DNA from: Intrasporangiaceae bacterium URHB0013
GTDB taxonomy: Bacteria; Actinomycetota; Actinomycetes; Actinomycetales; Dermatophilaceae
Assembly (NCBI GenBank): GCA_000620545.1
Contig: JIBA01000012.1
Span: 1-64,000 of the forward strand
DNA: 64,000 nt
Direction of reading: 5' to 3'
The translations under genes were made by a program, and so were the position numbers. Under the pieces are notes generated by a model. That model did no database searches. It saw nothing but the letters and a program-made list of their open reading frames with translations, and was not told the origin of the DNA. Of the stretch, positions 40,621 to 61,819 are shown piece by piece. The number at the start of each line of letters is the position of its first letter. The stretch's first letter is position 1.

Positions 40621-40957
40621 CCGCCGCTCAGGACAGTCGCGAGTGTCTGGCAAACGACCCGTCTCGTGGGGCGGTGGACGAATGAGGTGGCTAGGGGATC
40701 GCACCCGTAGTGACACAAACCTGCAGCAAGTGTCGGGGGTGTCTGTCATCATCTTTCTGGGTCAAGAGGCGCGACCGTCACCCACCTTGGAGGGGTCGCC
40801 CGGCAACCGGTCCGCCCCGGTGCCGTCCAAGGAAGACCCGGCCGCGCCGGCATCCGTCGGTTCGGCCAGAGCGGGCTCGGTTCAGGGGCTCCTTGGACCG
40901 AAAGGGCTGTCGATGCACCCATCCCTGCTTCCCGGGCTTCGCCCCGCAACTCCGCTA
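40621..40957. other. Intergenic stretch with possible Cys-rich fragment
   Basis: Mostly unexplained. A frame from GTG 40710 starts TQTCSKCRGCLSSSFWVKRR, which recalls short zinc-ribbon proteins, but its continuation is Arg/Pro-rich without sense, so it is at most a relic. Confidence 0.3.
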
Positions 40958-53402: not shown

Positions 53403-53492
53403 TCCGCGCCCCTCGCCCGGTCGCCCCACCGCAAGAACGTCACAAGGTTGTTGCAAGGTCGCCGGAATATGGTCGTTAAGACCCGGATATCG

Positions 53493-53610
53493 CCCTTGAC
53501 TGGAGGAGTCGTCAGGGGATGACGAAGACTTGGACGGTTGGCCCGTTGTGGTACGTGAACCGTCATGGGGCCCGAGCTCGCATCGCGAGGCGGGCCCCTT
53601 CGTCATCAGG
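53493..53610 (+). ncRNA. Candidate small structured RNA, copy 1
   Basis: Three successive hairpins. P1: CCCTTGAC/GTCAGGGG (53493-53500, 53511-53518; one G-U). P2: GACGGTT/AACCGTC (53533-53539, 53558-53564) with an 18-nt loop. P3: GGGGCCCG/CGGGCCCC (53567-53574, 53591-53598) enclosing CTCGC/GCGAG, terminator-like. The core 53525-53565 matches 60949-60989 with one mismatch in 41 nt, while P1 and P3 differ in sequence but keep position and shape. It lies between two minus-strand genes, antisense to neither. Ends and promoter are not defined. No known RNA family was recognised. Confidence 0.55.
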
Positions 53611-53724
53611 ACGCGCGAGGGCCACCGCGCGCCAGACGAACTCGAGCAGTCCCGCGCGGGCCAGGGCGGGTCGCGCCGGGCCGCGTGGGGCCGCGTCGGC
53701 CGCGCTGGGCCATGCCTGGCCGCG

Positions 53725-54252
53725 TCAGGCGACGGCGATGTCGACGAGCAGCTCGCTGGCGAGGTGCTCCAGGTCGGCGCGCAGCGCTGCGTTGTCGGAC
53801 TCGGCCGGCACCCGGACGACGACGTGCGCCTCGAAGAGCAGACCACCCGCCATCGGTGCCTCGCGCGTGGAGGTCGTCATCGTCTCGATCGACAGGTCGT
53901 GCCGGCGCAGGACCGACGACACCTCCCGGACGATGCCCGGGCTGTCGTTGCCGAGCAGGTCGACGGTCAGGCGCTGCTCGTCTCCCGTGCCCGCGCCACC
54001 GACGGCGGCACCGGTCTCCGCACCCGGGTGCGTCGTCACCTCGAGCAGGCCGTCGAGCTCACGAAGCGCCGCCGTCAGCTCGTCGACGCGCTCGACCGGG
54101 ACACCGACGACGACGATGCCGGCGAACTTGCTGGCGAGCTCGGCGAGCTGGCTGTCCTCCCAGTTGCCGTCGTGGGCGGTGACGACGTCCGCGAGGGCGC
54201 TGACGAGACCGGAGCGGTCGTCGCCGATGACGGTGAGCACGAGTCTGGGCAC
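53725..54252 (-). CDS. Tandem ACT-domain protein (GcvR-like)
   Basis: A 175-aa protein with two ACT domains: LVLTVIGDDRSGLVSALADV (1-~75) and LTVDLLGNDSPGIVREVSSV (~95-170), both starting with the (V/L)-x-G-x-D-x-x-G-(L/I)-V pattern. ACT domains bind amino acids. The layout is that of GcvR-type regulatory proteins, which work through other regulators and have no DNA-binding domain. Amino-acid ligand unknown. GTG or ATG near 54252 fits the first strand. Confidence 0.8.
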   Translation of the reverse strand: MPRLVLTVIGDDRSGLVSALADVVTAHDGNWEDSQLAELASKFAGIVVVGVPVERVDELTAALRELDGLLEVTTHPGAETGAAVGGAGTGDEQRLTVDLLGNDSPGIVREVSSVLRRHDLSIETMTTSTREAPMAGGLLFEAHVVVRVPAESDNAALRADLEHLASELLVDIAVA

Positions 54253-54305
54253 ACCCGCAGCCTACTGACGCAAGCCGGGGCCGGTCCGGCGAGTAGCGTC
54301 GAGGG

Positions 54306-55352
54306 ATGCGGGGCGACCCGGCGGCCGCGCGCTTCGCGGCGATGCGGTCCGGCTACGAGAGCCACTACCTGCGGGCGGTGGCTCCCGGTGGCGGGCTCGG
54401 CTTCTGGCTGCGGCACACCGTCCACCTCGAGGAGGGCGAGCCGCCCCTGAGCTCGACGTGGTTCACCCTCTTCGACGCGGACAGGCCCGGACCCGTCGCC
54501 GCCAAGGTGACCGTCGAGGGTCCACCCTCGAGCGGCCCGCACTGGGTCGGCGTGGCCGGATCGACCCTCGGGCCGACCCGGGCGGCCGGGTCGATCCCGG
54601 CAGCTCCGGGACGCGTCCCGGTCTCCTGGGACGTCACGTTCCTCGGCGAGCCCCCGCTCGAGCACCTGCCGTCCACGTGGATGTATGCCGCCCCGGTGCC
54701 GAGGACGAAGCCCGTCAGCGTCCACCCCAGCGCCAGGTTCACCGGCACCATCACCGTCGACGGCCGCGACATCGACGTCGACGGCTGGCAGGGAATGGTC
54801 GGTCACAACTGGGGGTCCGAGCACGCCGAGCGCTGGATCTGGTTGCACGGCCTCGGTTTCGACGGCGAGCCCTCCAGCACGTGGATCGACGTCGTGCTCG
54901 GGCGGCTGCGCCTCGGGGGTGTCACGACGCCGTGGGTCGCGAATGGCGTGCTGTCGGTGCGCGGCGACCGACGACGGCTCGGCGGCCTCTCACACACGAG
55001 CGCGACCCGGGTCGAGGAGCGTCGCGGCGGCGCCCACCTCCACCTGCCCGGCCGCGGGGGCCTGAGCGTCGACGTCGACGTGCGAGCCCCGGCCGATCGC
55101 TCCGTCGGCTGGGTGTACGCGGACGCCGGCGACCGTCGCCGACACAGCGGCCACTCGGTCGTCAACTGCTCGATCGCCGACCTCGACGTGGCGGTCCGCC
55201 TGCCGGGAGGCCTCGTCCGCGTCATCAGAGCAGCCGGGCAGGCGGCATACGAGATCGGGACGCGCGAGCGGCCCACCGACGTGCCGCTCCAGCCGTTTCC
55301 CGACGGGCCGGCAGCACGCCCTGGCGCCGGGCCGGGTGCGCCCGCTTCTTGA
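54306..55352 (+). CDS. CrtC/AttH-like lipocalin-fold protein
   Basis: A 348-aa protein. WLRHTVHLEEGEPPL, the central GWQGMVGHNWGSEHAERWIW and LRLGGVTTPWVANG resemble hydroxyneurosporene synthase (CrtC)/AttH lipocalin-like proteins. HNWGxEH is the family's best-conserved element. Enzymatic activity in this branch is not established. The C-terminus is Pro/Ala-rich. Convergent with the MpaB gene. Confidence 0.7.
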   Translation: MRGDPAAARFAAMRSGYESHYLRAVAPGGGLGFWLRHTVHLEEGEPPLSSTWFTLFDADRPGPVAAKVTVEGPPSSGPHWVGVAGSTLGPTRAAGSIPAAPGRVPVSWDVTFLGEPPLEHLPSTWMYAAPVPRTKPVSVHPSARFTGTITVDGRDIDVDGWQGMVGHNWGSEHAERWIWLHGLGFDGEPSSTWIDVVLGRLRLGGVTTPWVANGVLSVRGDRRRLGGLSHTSATRVEERRGGAHLHLPGRGGLSVDVDVRAPADRSVGWVYADAGDRRRHSGHSVVNCSIADLDVAVRLPGGLVRVIRAAGQAAYEIGTRERPTDVPLQPFPDGPAARPGAGPGAPAS

Positions 55353-55382
55353 GCGCAACCCGGCCCGGTCAAAGGTGGCCGC

Positions 55383-56339
55383 TCAGCTGGCGGCCCGGTC
55401 CCCGACGAGGTCGTCCGGCTCGTCGGGGGGTCTGGGTGCGTTCGGCGGCGTGTTCGACGGGATGTCGGACGGGCGGCGCTCGGCCAGGCCGGCCATGCCC
55501 CATCGCACCGCTGCCGTGCCGAGGTGCCCGAGCGGCCGCGCCACGAGCGTCGAGACGACGCCGGGCAGCGGGATGCCGAGCATCTCGCGCGCCCACCCGG
55601 GGAGCAGGGACACGCCGCCGGAGGCGATGGTCCCGTAGCCCGGTCGGGCGAACAGGGGAAGGGGCGGGTCGAGCAGGAGGAAGCGCGCCGCGTCGCGTGC
55701 CGCCGGACTCGTCTCCAGCTCAGGGCGATAGGCAAGCAGGATCGCCCGCAGCCCGGCCACCGAGGTGGGCGGGTCGAGAACGCCGAGCCGTGCGGCCGGG
55801 ACACCGGCCTGTGCCACGTAGAGGTCGGCCTCGGCGTCGGTCAGCGGCTCGTCGCCGAAGGTCTGGTAGGCGCGCAGGAACGAGTCGACCTCCGCCGCGT
55901 GCACCCACAGGAGCAGGTGCGGGTCGTCGGCGCGGTAGGGCCGGCCGAGGTGGTCCTTGCCGCGCACCCGCTCGTGGATCGAGCGGACCGTCGCGATGGC
56001 CTCCTCGGCGTGCTCGATCGTGCCGAAGGTCGTCGTCGCGAGATAGTGGCTGGTGCGCTGGAGCCGGCCCCAGGGGTCGCTCTTGTAGCCGCTGTGGCCG
56101 GCGACCCCCGCCATCGCCATCGGGTGCAGCATCTGCAGCAGGAGCGAGGTGATGCCCGCGGGGAACATCGACGCGTCGGCGTGCACGCGCCACACCGGGT
56201 CCGTGGGCGTGAACCAGCGCTCGCCCTCGGCGCCCCAGATCCGCTGCGCACGCGCGGGCGCGTCATCGCCCGCGACCTTGCTGCGCAGCATCCTGCCGAG
56301 CTGGCGCTGGACCAGCCGGGCTCCGGATGTGGGACTCAT
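55383..56339 (-). CDS. Oxygenase MpaB family protein (DUF2236)
   Basis: A 318-aa helical protein of the MpaB/latex-clearing (DUF2236) family. Typical elements: PVWRVHADASMFPAGITSLL, LLQMLHPMAMAGVAGHSGY with a candidate haem-ligand His, LLLWVHAAEVDSFLRAYQTF. Homologues cleave polyisoprenoids or mycophenolate precursors oxidatively. Substrate here unknown. The C-terminus (residues ~295-318) is Pro/Asp-rich. ATG 56339; an upstream TTG is less likely. Confidence 0.85.
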   Translation of the reverse strand: MSPTSGARLVQRQLGRMLRSKVAGDDAPARAQRIWGAEGERWFTPTDPVWRVHADASMFPAGITSLLLQMLHPMAMAGVAGHSGYKSDPWGRLQRTSHYLATTTFGTIEHAEEAIATVRSIHERVRGKDHLGRPYRADDPHLLLWVHAAEVDSFLRAYQTFGDEPLTDAEADLYVAQAGVPAARLGVLDPPTSVAGLRAILLAYRPELETSPAARDAARFLLLDPPLPLFARPGYGTIASGGVSLLPGWAREMLGIPLPGVVSTLVARPLGHLGTAAVRWGMAGLAERRPSDIPSNTPPNAPRPPDEPDDLVGDRAAS

Positions 56340-56416
56340 GGGGGACAACCTAACCGCGGGCCAGCGAGGTGGAGAAGATCCTGTCCAACCTTTGTCCCGC
56401 TTCGCCCCGCGAGCGC

Positions 56417-56821
56417 TCAGCCGAGCGAGATCCGGACGCCGGCGCGCTTGCCACGGGGCCGCAGGCGGTCGGTGACCGCGGCCACCGCGTCACCGAGCCG
56501 GGCCATGACGTACTTGCGGCCGATGGCGCGTTTGACGGCGGCAACGCCCTCCGGGCTGCGGTCGACGACGGCCGTGCCGGCATACGTCGGCGCGCCCTCG
56601 GGCACTCGGCCGCGGATGTCACACGGGCGCAGCTCGACCCGCGCAGTGTGCGCCAGGCGCTTGAGCTTGCCGCTCGGGTCGACGGTGACGACGACGAGCT
56701 CGTCGGCGTCTCGCGCGATCCAGACCGGCGACGACACCGGAGCCCCCGTCCGGCGGAACGTCGTCAGCGACACGTAGCGGTTCGCGTTGACGAGGTCGAG
56801 GTCGTTGGGCAGCGGGCTCAC
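56417..56821 (-). CDS. PPOX-class F420-dependent oxidoreductase
   Basis: A 134-aa split beta-barrel protein. YVSLTTFRRTGAPVSSPVWI, ELVVVTVDPSGKLKRLAHTA, RVELRPCDIRGRVPEGAPTY and the last helix are the small F420-binding oxidoreductase pattern. It binds a flavin-type cofactor as a dimer. Substrate unknown. GTG start 56821 follows the PLPNDLDLVNANRY lead. The word GTATGCCG lies just upstream. Confidence 0.85.
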   Translation of the reverse strand: MSPLPNDLDLVNANRYVSLTTFRRTGAPVSSPVWIARDADELVVVTVDPSGKLKRLAHTARVELRPCDIRGRVPEGAPTYAGTAVVDRSPEGVAAVKRAIGRKYVMARLGDAVAAVTDRLRPRGKRAGVRISLG

Positions 56822-56884
56822 GCGGCCAGCGTATGCCGTGTGGGCGCCCGGGAGCGTCTGCCACCACCGTGCCCACCCGGCTCC

Positions 56885-58240
56885 TCACGCCACGGTGCGG
56901 ACCACCGCGATGACGCCGATGGCGAGGGAGGTCGCCGCCATGAGAGCCGCGGTGGTCGTGGCGGCGACCCCGCCACGCCCCGGGCGACGGGCCAACGCCG
57001 TGGCCGTCGTCGTGAAGGCAGCAAGGAGGAGTCCGAGGGTCATGAGGTTCGCGGCATCACCACGTCGCTGCGAGGAGTCGACCGCCTCGTGCTGGGCGGC
57101 CAGGAGGGCGTCGTAGTCGGCCGGCTCGGACCCGACCATGGCGACGACCGCGGGCGGGACGTTGTCGGACTCGGTGGGCGGCGCTGTCATGGTCGCCGCG
57201 ACCTGCGCCCACGTGGATGCCGCAGTGGCGTCCGCGTTCGCGAGCTCGGACTGACCCGGCACGTCGTCTCCCACGGCAACGAACTGTCTGGCGAGGGAGA
57301 GCATTCCGAGCCGCACCTCTTCCTGTTGGCTCCGGAGCGCGAACGAGTTGAAGAGCTGGCTCGCGAGCAGTGAGCCGGTGATCGTCGTGGCCCGCCGTGA
57401 AGCCTCGGCGTCGTCCCGTGCCGACCCGCTCGAGAGCACGAGCTGGGCCGCAGTCAGTACGGGCAGCAGCAGCCAGGCCACGAGGGCCACGGCTGCGACC
57501 ACGCGCTGGGTCCGCGTCCGCTCCTGCCAGGGCTGGGGGACGATGCCGACGTCGTCGCCGACGGACGAGTGCTCGACAGCCGACCCCGGTCCCGGGGCCG
57601 GCTGCTGACGGTGCCGGTTGCCCGCGGTGCGGACGACGACGAACGCCACCGCGGCGACGACCGACAGGGCAGCGAGACGCAACGCCCACTCCGCTCGCTC
57701 GTCAGCGTCGGCGACGGCCTGCTCGACGCCGTGGGGGTCGGCGCCGGCAGTGGTGAGCGCGTCCGCGAGACGGGCGCTCACGGCATACCCGTGGTCGGCC
57801 CGCTCGTAGTCGGGGGACAGGAGTGAGCTGCCGGCCTGCTGCAGCCCTGCCCGGAGCTCACCGGCGGCCTTGCGCAGCGTCGCTGCCTCCGCGGCCGCCA
57901 GTCGGCTGCCCGGAGTGGCGACGCCCTGGGACGTGACGGCGTCCGAGGCGTCCTGGAGAGCGTCCGCCCGCACCTCGAGCAGCGCGAGGTCGAGCGCGAC
58001 GGGTGCCTGGTCCTGGTAGAGATGGCGCATCTCCTCGACGGTCAGGGCCATCGAGCGCGTCTCGAGTCGGGTCGACTGCAGCCAGGAGCCGCTCGCCTGG
58101 GCGGCGAGCCACGTGCCCGCGGCCAGCAGTGCCGCGACGAGGACCGAGACGACGACCTGGGCCGGGTTCGAGCGGATCCGGGCCGCCCAGCCATGCAGAT
58201 GCCCGGCGGCACGTTCGGCCGGTGAGCCGTGGGGGGTCAC
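56885..58240 (-). CDS. Four-helix membrane protein coupled to lipoprotein gene
   Basis: A 451-aa protein, GTG 58240, overlapping the lipoprotein stop codon (GTGA). Helix 1 VVVSVLVAALLAAGTWLA, then a periplasm-facing helical segment (~55-190), helix 2 LRLAALSVVAAVAFVVV, a cytosolic linker, helix 3 VVAAVALVAWLLLPVLTA, a second extracytoplasmic helical segment (~300-400) and a terminal helix pair. The two extracytoplasmic modules resemble sensor-type (four-helix) domains, without any kinase or output domain. It could be the sensing part of the lipoprotein partner. Function unknown. Confidence 0.6.
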   Translation of the reverse strand: MTPHGSPAERAAGHLHGWAARIRSNPAQVVVSVLVAALLAAGTWLAAQASGSWLQSTRLETRSMALTVEEMRHLYQDQAPVALDLALLEVRADALQDASDAVTSQGVATPGSRLAAAEAATLRKAAGELRAGLQQAGSSLLSPDYERADHGYAVSARLADALTTAGADPHGVEQAVADADERAEWALRLAALSVVAAVAFVVVRTAGNRHRQQPAPGPGSAVEHSSVGDDVGIVPQPWQERTRTQRVVAAVALVAWLLLPVLTAAQLVLSSGSARDDAEASRRATTITGSLLASQLFNSFALRSQQEEVRLGMLSLARQFVAVGDDVPGQSELANADATAASTWAQVAATMTAPPTESDNVPPAVVAMVGSEPADYDALLAAQHEAVDSSQRRGDAANLMTLGLLLAAFTTTATALARRPGRGGVAATTTAALMAATSLAIGVIAVVRTVA

Positions 58241-58911
58241 CGGGGTGGCTCCTGCGTCACCGGCTCGTAGGCCACCGTCCCGAACTCGCCGACCAGGACG
58301 AGGGTGTCGCCTTGCATCGACCACGTGTACGTCTCCGGCGACAGGTCCTCGAGCGGCCGCCCGTCGTAGCTGCTGGACGGCGAGTCCGGGTCGTGCAGGG
58401 TCTGCACCCCACTTTCCGGTGTCAGCGTCAGCGTCGGGCCGGCCACGTCGACGACCCCCTTGGTGCCGATGTCGAACTCGAAGGTGCCGCTCGTCCGTGA
58501 CTGCATGAGCACCTGGGCCCGCACGAACCGGCCGTCGGGCGAGAAGGTGTAGAGCACCTCGGCCGATCCCTGGTCCAGGCTCTGCCACGTGCCCTCGAGC
58601 GCGCGCGGGATGACGGTGGCGTCCGACTCTCGTGTCGGGGCGGGGGCTGGGGCGGGGAACGGGTTGGCGGTCGGCGTGGACGCCGACGTGGGGGCCGATG
58701 TGGAGGCCGACGTGGAGGGCGGAGGCTGGGCGGTGGTCTGCGTGACCGTCACGGTCGTCAGCGTCGGCGTCGCACCGGGCTGTGGCGACGTGGAGCAGGC
58801 CGTCAGCGACAGCGGGACCAGCGGCATCACGGCCAGGGCCAGGGCCGCAGTCCGACGCCACCTGGTCCGATCCAGTGGGCGCGTAGTCATGTGGTCCATG
58901 GGCTCGGGCAT
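58237..58911 (-). CDS. Lipoprotein of unknown function
   Basis: A 224-aa lipoprotein. ATG 58911 follows GGAGG by 8 nt. After RTRWRRTAALALAV a hydrophobic run ends in the lipobox LSLTAC, so the Cys will be lipidated and anchored on the outer face of the membrane. A Thr/Ser/Pro/Ala linker precedes a beta-rich domain: GTWQSLDQGSAEVLYTFSPD, FEFDIGTKGVVDVAGPTLTL. It looks like a small lipocalin-like or calycin fold. Co-translated with the membrane protein downstream. Confidence 0.75.
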   Translation of the reverse strand: MPEPMDHMTTRPLDRTRWRRTAALALAVMPLVPLSLTACSTSPQPGATPTLTTVTVTQTTAQPPPSTSASTSAPTSASTPTANPFPAPAPAPTRESDATVIPRALEGTWQSLDQGSAEVLYTFSPDGRFVRAQVLMQSRTSGTFEFDIGTKGVVDVAGPTLTLTPESGVQTLHDPDSPSSSYDGRPLEDLSPETYTWSMQGDTLVLVGEFGTVAYEPVTQEPPR

Positions 58912-59028
58912 CGGCTCGCCCTCCTCGTGCCGGCACGTCAATGGTGCCTCTTAGGATCAGACGCGCCGGCCGGTGCCCGTGATACGCGCGGTAGCCCACG
59001 ATCGGCTCCCGGCGTTTCACAATGGGCC

Positions 59029-59553
59029 ATGGCGCTCGCGCTCTGCCTCCTGCTCGACCACCGGTCCGACCGCCTCGTGCGCGCACTGTGGGAGCGCCTC
59101 GAGGAGGACGGCGTGCCGACGCTGCTCACACACACGCACGGCCACCACGTCGCCCACCTGTCGTATGCCGTCCTGCTGGCCTGGGAGCAGGAGGCGGTCA
59201 GCTCGGCCGTGGCCGGACTGTGCGACGGCGGGCCGGTGGCGTTCTCGGTGCAGGGCACGGTGGTCTTTCCTCGGGGCCGCGCGGCGCTCGCCGGGTCTGC
59301 CTCGATCGAGCTCGCCACCCGGCAGGCCCGCGCCGTTGAGGCGCTGCGCGCAACGGGTGCGACGATCCACCGCCACTACGAGCCCGGCCACTGGATGCCG
59401 CACGTGTCCGCGACGACCGGCGTCCCCGGCGCTCGGGTGCACCGCGTCGTCGACGCCGTGTCGGACCGCCTGCCGCTGACGCTGCGGTGCGACCGTGCCG
59501 CCCTCATCGACACGACCGACGGGACCACGTGGGACCTGCCCATGGTGCCGTGA
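59029..59553 (+). CDS. 2H phosphoesterase (2'-5' RNA ligase family)
   Basis: A 174-aa protein. LLTHTHGHHVAHLSYAVLLA carries the first His-x-Ser and HWMPHVSATTGVPGA the second, the two catalytic HxS motifs of 2H phosphoesterases that act on 2',5' or cyclic phosphate linkages in RNA-derived nucleotides. The true substrate is unknown. ATG 59029 was chosen because the sequence before it is not conserved. Confidence 0.8.
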   Translation: MALALCLLLDHRSDRLVRALWERLEEDGVPTLLTHTHGHHVAHLSYAVLLAWEQEAVSSAVAGLCDGGPVAFSVQGTVVFPRGRAALAGSASIELATRQARAVEALRATGATIHRHYEPGHWMPHVSATTGVPGARVHRVVDAVSDRLPLTLRCDRAALIDTTDGTTWDLPMVP

Positions 59554-59666
59554 CGGCATCCGTGCTCATCCGCGTGAGCCCGGATGAGTACGCGTGCCCA
59601 GTATCGATCCGCTGCCCCGGCGCACTTCTCCTCGACCAACCAAACTTCGGGGAAAGACACAGGACC

Positions 59667-60815
59667 ATGCGCATCAGCTTCACGCCCGCCGAGAACGGCT
59701 TCGCCTTCAGCAACCGCTTCACCAACCACGTCATCCGCATCCCGTCCGTCGGGGTCGACATCACCACCCGCGGCCGTTGCGGCGGCATGGCGGCCGCCGC
59801 CATGGACTACTGGTACGCCGGCCTGGCCATGTCGACGAACGCGACTCTCCCGCAAGACGGCTCACTCGTCGCCGACTACGTCTACGCGCGGCTCATGGAC
59901 ACCTTCGTCGACAACGGGCTGAAGTTCGTGCAGTACGCGACGAGCCTCGACCACCCGACCTGGCTGCGCGGCAAGGGCGTCGCCCGGATGACGCGCGAGG
60001 ACGAGCTGCCCAGGCTCAAGGATCGGCTCAACTCGGGCCAGCCGGTGCTCCTCGGCCTGACCCAGGCCCGCTCGGTGACCGAGCTGGGCAACGACCACCA
60101 GGTCGTCGCCTACGGCTGGGAGCAGGACAGCCGCTACACCTATGTCCTCGTCTACGACAACAACAACCCGGGCCAGGAGGTCCGCCTCAGGCTGACCACC
60201 GTCGACGACCCGGCAGAGCGGGCCATCACCGGCAGCAACGGCAAGACGTGGCGCGGCCTCTTCGTCGAGAGCTACACCCGCAAGGTCCCGGCCTTCCTCG
60301 CCGACGGACGCGTCATCCACGACTCGACGGACCCCCGCATCATGGTCATCCGCGGCGGCGGCCAGTTCTGGGTCCCGTCACCGTCGGAGTTCGACGCATG
60401 CGGGTTCCGCTGGGATGCAGTCGTCTCCGCCAAGCCCGGCTCGATGGCCCACGTCGCCACGCACCCGGGCAACGGCACGCTCGTCCGCGAACGCGGCACC
60501 GACCCGATCCACGTCGTCTACGGCGGCAAGGCCTTCTGGATCCCGTCACCCGAGGTCTTCGAGGGCCTCGGTCTGGACTGGGGCAAGGTCCGCGAGATCC
60601 CGCAGGGCACGCTCGCAGGCCTCCGCCAGATGCCGCTCGACCGGACGCTGCTGCGCGAGCGCTCGGCGGACCCGGTGTGGCTCGTCGACGGCGGACGCCT
60701 CCGGCACGTCACGAGCCAGGCAGTCATGGACCGGCTCGGTCTCGAGTGGGCCTGCGTCCGCGTCGTCCCCGACGGTGCTCTCGCGGGTCTCGCGACGGGG
60801 ACCCCGATCTCCTGA
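59667..60815 (+). CDS. Papain-like (C39-type) protein with C-terminal repeats
   Basis: A 382-aa protein, ATG 59667, GGGGAAAG ~10 nt upstream. Residues 1-210 look like a papain-like cysteine peptidase fold: Cys38 in GRCGGMAAAAMDYW, His144 in GNDHQVVAYGW, and Asp164 in LVYDNNNPG as the third residue. The last 170 residues are three ~55-residue beta repeats each ending FWIPSPEVF- or similar, with LRERGTDPIHVVYGGK. No signal peptide, so the activity is probably cytosolic or the protein is exported by another route. Substrate unknown. Homologues with this repeat tail are seen in actinobacteria. Confidence 0.65.
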   Translation: MRISFTPAENGFAFSNRFTNHVIRIPSVGVDITTRGRCGGMAAAAMDYWYAGLAMSTNATLPQDGSLVADYVYARLMDTFVDNGLKFVQYATSLDHPTWLRGKGVARMTREDELPRLKDRLNSGQPVLLGLTQARSVTELGNDHQVVAYGWEQDSRYTYVLVYDNNNPGQEVRLRLTTVDDPAERAITGSNGKTWRGLFVESYTRKVPAFLADGRVIHDSTDPRIMVIRGGGQFWVPSPSEFDACGFRWDAVVSAKPGSMAHVATHPGNGTLVRERGTDPIHVVYGGKAFWIPSPEVFEGLGLDWGKVREIPQGTLAGLRQMPLDRTLLRERSADPVWLVDGGRLRHVTSQAVMDRLGLEWACVRVVPDGALAGLATGTPIS

Positions 60816-60916
60816 CGGAAGGCCGCGCGGACTAGTCACTGCTGGTCCGTTTGCGCCATCTTGCGCCAATCCAACGACCTGCGCCCTCACCGGCGTGTCA
60901 CTCTGTCTCGGTCGCC

Positions 60917-61032
60917 CCTGAGCGGGACACTCGTTCTCAGGAAAGACCAAGACTTCGACGGTTGGCCCGTTGTGGTACGTGAACCGTCACTGGTAGCCCG
61001 GCATCGCGAACGCGAGCCGGGCTCCAACATTT
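60917..61032 (+). ncRNA. Candidate small structured RNA, copy 2
   Basis: Same layout as copy 1. P1: CCTGAG/CTCAGG (60917-60922, 60936-60941). P2: GACGGTT/AACCGTC (60957-60963, 60982-60988), with the same 18-nt loop. P3: AGCCCGG/CCGGGCT (60995-61001, 61017-61023) enclosing CGCG/CGCG, followed by CCAACATTTTC, a good intrinsic terminator. P1 and P3 share no obvious sequence with copy 1. Located between two plus-strand genes, starting ~100 bp past the C39-like stop codon and ending ~85 bp before the SRPBCC start. Confidence 0.55.
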
Positions 61033-61117
61033 TCAGGGGCCGTGCGCGTCCGACCTGTCTGCGGCGGTGACCCGGATCTCGGTGCGCGCCAACAGGATCC
61101 GGACTACCGTGAAGAGC

Positions 61118-61819
61118 ATGAGACGGTCGCTCGCACCGGTGGTCGTCGGCGCCGTGGTCCTGTCCGTGGTGACGCTCCGGTGGTCGGCGCTGCACTGGGG
61201 CGCCACCACCGAGGAGTCGCGCGAGCCACTGCCCGGTGACGAGCTCCTGCCGGTCGCGGGGCTCGTCGCCACTCGTGCCATCACGATCCAGGCCCCGCCA
61301 GAGGACGTCTGGCCGTGGGTCGTGCAGCTGGGCGCGGACCGTGGTGGCTTCTACAGCTATGACCGCATCGAGAACCTCGTCGGCTGCCGGCTCCACAGCG
61401 CGGACAGCGTCGTCGAGGAGTGGCAGCACCTCGAGGCGGGCGACGTCGTCCGCCTGCACCCGCAGGTCGCCCTGGCCGTCGCCTCGGTGGACCCCGGACG
61501 CTCGCTCGTGCTCCGCGCGCCACAGGCCGAGCAGGCTGGCTCCGAGGCTGCCCCCTACGACTTCACGTGGTCGTTCGTGCTGCGTCGTCATCCGCACCGC
61601 GCGACACGGCTCATCACCCGTGAGCGCTTCGCCCACACGCACCGCTGGTCGCCTCTCGTCGTCGAGCCGGTCTCGGTGGCGAGCTCGTTGATGAGCCAGA
61701 AGATGCTGCGCGGCATCCGCGACCGCGCCGAGCGCGCGGCCCAGGAGCCGTCACGGACACTCAGTCCAGGATGGCCGTCAGCGCGTCGAGGAGGATCTCG
61801 ACCTCCCTCTCGCCGATGA
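61118..61819 (+). CDS. SRPBCC-type protein with N-terminal membrane helix
   Basis: A 233-aa protein: an N-terminal hydrophobic helix (SLAPVVVGAVVLSVVTLRW), then an SRPBCC ligand-binding domain with ATRAITIQAPPEDVWPWVVQ, GADRGGFYSYDRIENLVGCR and a C-terminal helix around SSLMSQKMLRGIRDRAE. The tail (from ~205) overlaps the 3' end of the convergent aminotransferase gene by 59 bp. ATG 61118. Ligand unknown. Confidence 0.75.
   Translation: MRRSLAPVVVGAVVLSVVTLRWSALHWGATTEESREPLPGDELLPVAGLVATRAITIQAPPEDVWPWVVQLGADRGGFYSYDRIENLVGCRLHSADSVVEEWQHLEAGDVVRLHPQVALAVASVDPGRSLVLRAPQAEQAGSEAAPYDFTWSFVLRRHPHRATRLITRERFAHTHRWSPLVVEPVSVASSLMSQKMLRGIRDRAERAAQEPSRTLSPGWPSARRGGSRPPSRR

Follow-up and report, generated by a model that had tools for sequence, protein, structure and literature searches.

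A probable small non-coding RNA family with sister copies and a near-invariant 18-nt loop in Intrasporangiaceae

Multicopy sets of trans-acting small RNAs (sRNAs) include Qrr1-5, LhrC1-5, and OmrA/OmrB. Within these sets, paralogous short RNAs share one invariant unpaired stretch, end in a hairpin, have different upstream regions, and are otherwise divergent. The 6C RNA forms two hairpins with C-rich loops and, like the element described here, is short, structured, intergenic, and actinobacterial, with a conserved loop. To our knowledge, regulatory RNAs of high-GC actinobacteria are almost uncharted beyond mycobacteria, corynebacteria, and streptomycetes. ANTAR-target RNAs require a pair of neighbouring hairpins whose hexanucleotide loops have A at position 1 and G at position 4, and they are usually found close to an ORF start (PMC8164766).

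The window analyzed here (64,000 nt, positions 1-64000 of one contig of a 4.57-Mb host genome) contains two copies of an element that, on comparative grounds, are probably sister genes of a small non-coding regulatory RNA from a family absent from Rfam. The closest named relatives carrying the element are Terrabacter and Terracoccus (family Intrasporangiaceae). The element shares the features listed above for Qrr1-5, LhrC1-5, and OmrA/OmrB. Unlike those sets, to which no sequence relation was found, this family occurs in few actinobacterial genera and its targets are at candidate level. Identity with the 6C RNA was rejected, as RF01066 gave no match and the element has one mixed 18-nt loop, GGCCCGUUGUGGUACGUG. 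ANTAR-target RNAs share with it tandem hairpins in an actinobacterial intergenic RNA, but identity was likewise rejected on the 18-nt loop of the conserved hairpin. Neither copy matched Rfam 15 at the gathering threshold, and permissive scans returned sub-threshold chance matches alone, in keeping with the original prediction of an undescribed RNA. Across the window, Rfam matched only a SAM-IV riboswitch (RF00634, 46.3 bits) at 40760-40877 (+). With its covariation, paralogues, common promoter-like motif, and one obvious loop to mutate, this uncatalogued and well-supported family would allow direct tests of partner-finding by actinobacterial sRNAs in a soil bacterium that is not a model organism.

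The two copies share a 41-mer (53525-53565 and 60949-60989) that lies on the same strand and between genes in each case. The 41-mers were identical at 40 of 41 bases, the sole difference being G at 53532 and C at 60956, and a blast of copy 1 against its own genome returned copy 2 (E = 9.4e-17) and no other match. Thus, the near-identity, shared strand, and location outside recognised genes that had been predicted for the pair all held, as did a 7-bp stem with an 18-nt loop, which is exact in both copies. In copy 1, this P2 core hairpin (53533-53564, +) pairs GACGGTT (53533-53539) with AACCGTC (53558-53564) around the loop GGCCCGTTGTGGTACGTG (53540-53557). In copy 2 (60957-60988, +), the same stem arms occupy 60957-60963 and 60982-60988, and the loop 60964-60981. 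Both core hairpins are supported by covariation and covariance-model matches, that of copy 2 also by blast. A conserved single-stranded box, AGACTT, recognised by comparison of copies, lies before P2 at 53526-53531 (+) and 60950-60955 (+); it is near-invariant in type A copies and reads (C/G)CTT in type B. Folding placed a further hairpin, P1, at 53509-53525 (+; TCGTCA/TGACGA) and 60917-60941 (+; CCTGAG/CTCAGG), and P2 is followed by a GC-rich hairpin, P3, a probable terminator, at 53567-53598 (+; tail TTCGTCAT) and 60991-61026 (+; tail ACATTTT). The folds of the whole copies beat those of shuffled sequences (z = -2.8 and -4.0), and single-sequence folding was weaker in several other genera.

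Covariation in P2 was tested in a 16-sequence version and then on 33 distinct sequences. In the latter, four of the seven pairs were changed on both sides, and 95% of cells paired; the stem variants include GACGGTT/AACCGTC, GGCGGTT/AACCGCC, GGTGGTT/AACCACC, and GGCGATT/AATCGTC. The covariation score was 0.186, compared to 0.113 +/- 0.015 in shuffles, none of which (0/500) scored as high, and controls with a slid register lost the covariation, save for a partial echo at +3. The loop (consensus UGGCCCGUUGUGGUACGUG, 18 nt) is nearly invariant; P1, P3, and the flanks diverge. The original prediction had taken different sequence with the same fold as the mark of a selected RNA. It had also proposed a search for compensatory changes in P1; these were seen in type B copies, where P1 covaries in step in one distant genus (GGTGCGGGG/CCCCGCACC versus GGAGCGGGA/TCCCGCTCC).

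The flanking hairpins fared less evenly. P1 and P3 are present in both window copies, and in Terrabacter orthologues of copy 1 the sequence of P1 has changed but its hairpin is kept. In aligned orthologues of copy 2, P1 reads CCTGGG/CCCAGG in some and is partly broken in others. However, P1 is absent in other genera and thus optional rather than a general part of the family, because a promoter-like box only ~15 nt before the core leaves no room for it (loci L100, L101, L109, and L110). P3 follows P2 by 0-5 nt in 36 of 37 copies as a GC-rich hairpin of differing sequence, and is likely a terminator. The predicted intrinsic terminators are likely but weakly U-rich: the U-tracts after P3 are weak, and an intrinsic-terminator scan made no call at P3 of either window copy. 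A pseudoknot between loop and terminator, prompted by CGGGC in most P3 3' arms, was rejected, since copy L097_5051 keeps the loop unchanged but carries CCAGGC instead.

A covariance model built on the core was searched against 188 genomes of the window's family. It gave clear matches of 44-78 bits in 22 genomes from nine genera, below which came a gap and then chance matches at 31 bits or less. Homologues with covarying stems, as the original prediction had proposed to look for in related genomes, were thus recovered. Searches at the level of the order (396 genomes) and the class (395 genomes) returned weak matches alone, none of them convincing; the inspected matches of 23-35 bits in other families looked like coding sequence or chance, most being ordinary coding sequence (e.g., L153). 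Since the element is clear in nine genera of one family and elsewhere gave weak matches alone, the putative family would therefore be young or confined to a few genera.

When copy 2 served as a blast query, each of the nine Terrabacter genomes gave a match, as did further genera. Each of the eight complete Terrabacter genomes holds two neighbouring copies, with copies 1 and 2 spaced 4-16 kb. A third, divergent copy, type B (loop UGGCCCGUUGAGGUACGUUAA), was present in six of the nine; on contigs that carry both, it lies 75-79 kb from copy 1. The window's own genome appears to lack type B, which an unfiltered search of 40 kb at the expected distance did not find. In genus g17, a pair of copies is separated by 0.5 kb. 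Sequence comparison shows the predicted RNA to be selected as a structure, non-coding, and free-standing; Terrabacter genomes each carry two or three paralogues with different upstream control regions. As to the small RNA family with intrinsic terminators that had been proposed, comparison supports a new family of that kind, with the reservations on tail and 5' stem given above.

Copies 1 and 2 encode the same putative RNA behind different upstream regions. A promoter-like motif, GTATC-N17/18-C[AT]CTG, precedes 17 of the 37 copies (0.005 expected from shuffles), at varying distance from the core, and had only two other occurrences in the loci scanned; its strict form is absent from both window copies. 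Because about two-thirds of the 12 sites in the window's genome (L111-L122) are found shortly before plausible gene starts, the distribution suggests a promoter class of some sigma factor. The neighbouring ECF sigma factor was rejected as the controlling factor, since its own gene is preceded by a TGAACC...CGTCTC-type motif and not GTATC-N17-CTCTG.

Upstream of copy 1, four 11-bp direct repeats (CGCAAGAACGT, CACAAGGTTGT, TGCAAGGTCGC, and CGGAATATGGT; 53430-53473, +) contain CGCAAG, CACAAG, TGCAAG, and CGGAAT, three of the four with CAAG. CAAG-N7-CAAG-N7-CAAG is kept upstream of copy 1 in seven of nine Terrabacter genomes. Such arrays are rare, at about 1-4 places per Terrabacter genome, and total 22 sites in the nine genomes compared to three for a reversed control pattern; a similar array precedes the copy of genus g29 (L105). 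The array, with its 11-bp period, is a probable activator-binding site of some regulator, and the spacing of one helical turn presumably suits an OmpR- or SARP-type activator. Two further CAAG-array sites recur across Terrabacter species (L166, L156, and others). Over 60917-60941 and the upstream stretch 60830-60900, orthologues of copy 2 have in common an invariant CGGGACACTCGTT, together with a ACTAGTCAC...TGGTCC block further upstream; this may be a further regulator site.

Among the properties of trans-encoded sRNAs, those of being intergenic, non-coding, structured, and conserved were found. We propose that each copy gives rise to a non-coding RNA of ~85-115 nt, in which a 5' end that is short or bears a hairpin would be followed by the AGACUU box, the P2 hairpin, and the GC-rich terminator hairpin. 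The P2 stem sequence would be free to change, and the 18-nt loop would not. The RNA would act in trans with the invariant loop as its contact surface, most likely by pairing of the loop to mRNAs close to the start site. The paralogues may respond to different signals with one and the same regulatory loop. For trans action via the loop, mRNA pairing is favored over protein binding. That the loop instead binds a regulator or an RNA-processing enzyme, the RNA serving as a sponge or scaffold, is possible but doubtful. This would suit the near base-by-base conservation of the loop and AGACUU box over nine genera, which goes beyond the usual need of a pairing seed, and a convincing conserved complementary site was not found; against it, the neighbours vary between genera and link no partner protein to the RNA.

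Within the favored reading of mRNA pairing, the 18-mer loop complement (up to three mismatches) and wobble patterns turned up no more often than control patterns did. One lead in the window is the start region (59008-59031, +) of a 2'-5' RNA ligase superfamily gene at 59029, with the start sequence CACAATGGGCC-ATG. Almost the whole loop is complementary to it (~17 pairs, -29.0 kcal/mol in the window). The pairing averaged -31.1 kcal/mol in seven Terrabacter genomes, and none of 3000 shuffled loops did as well, a test that overstates the significance, as this start was picked from ~200 start sites. In five further sRNA-bearing genomes (G001, G002, G036, G047, and G084), the pairing was much weaker. 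A second start-site match, at GTGCCATGATGGGCCG, belongs to an Rv2466c-like mycothiol-dependent nitroreductase (PF22234) and has 15-16 contiguous pairs in Terrabacter and genus g40, but not in g17, g27, and g51. Both candidate starts carry CACAAT or CATGAT 5-7 nt before the ATG, resembling -10 boxes. If they are indeed -10 boxes and the genes are leaderless, as may be the case, the bases that pair with the loop would lie outside the mRNA. Given this likeness and the weakening of the pairing in other sRNA-bearing genera, we do not claim the ligase and nitroreductase as targets. A more specific proposal, which as a whole we regard as unlikely, is that of a new Intrasporangiaceae sRNA family with two or three siblings, one unchanging 18-nt loop, and different promoters, in which nearly the whole loop would be antisense to the starts of the 2'-5' RNA ligase and the mycothiol-dependent nitroreductase, in a host without a known RNA chaperone for such RNAs.

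The gene neighbourhood bears on whether the element could act in cis. The two genes flanking copy 1, for a glycosyl hydrolase family 15 protein and an ACT-domain protein, run on the strand opposite to it. Copy 2 has two unassigned genes beside it (one ending at 60815, the other at 61067-61819), both on the same strand, the latter ~40 bp after P3; this position, together with a hairpin followed by a terminator, is what an attenuator or riboswitch within the next gene's 5' leader would look like. Such a cis-acting role is nevertheless very unlikely, since the next gene lies on the opposite strand (convergent) at copy 1 and many other copies and the downstream genes are unrelated between genera. 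By genus, the neighbours are GH15 and ACT-domain genes, MPAB oxygenase and PNPOx genes, ornithine carbamoyltransferase, a DnaJC28-like gene, or DUF2630 with GH3/GH43/arabinofuranosidase clusters. Because these neighbours differ between genera and often run opposite, the element is, judged from its genomic context, a free-standing sRNA and not a cis element. Type B copies (L091-L099 and L103) adjoin a plant-polysaccharide cluster (GH43, GH3, arabinofuranosidase, and ABC permease), and their other flank holds an ECF sigma factor block and a uracil-DNA glycosylase, some with a zf-HC2 anti-sigma gene.

The clustering of two or three near-identical copies in ~90 kb of a genome could also recall a mobile or DNA-level repeat, such as a transposon end, an integration site, or a phage element. 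We consider this highly improbable: searches of phages, plasmids, and viral contigs gave no match, the copy locations are conserved between Terrabacter species, and standard plus G-U stem pairs and separate upstream control regions point to RNA.

A small conserved protein is scarcely credible, even though one frame of each window copy translates to TKTxTVGPLWYVNRH, as the stem changes are compensatory and no frame was open with a start codon in all 37 copies. In-frame stops occur just before the core in L100 and L101, and in type B copies two of the frames are interrupted by stops. The core itself carries several nonsynonymous substitutions, including W to R, and single-base indels, and the 41-mer is accordingly not part of a conserved coding sequence.
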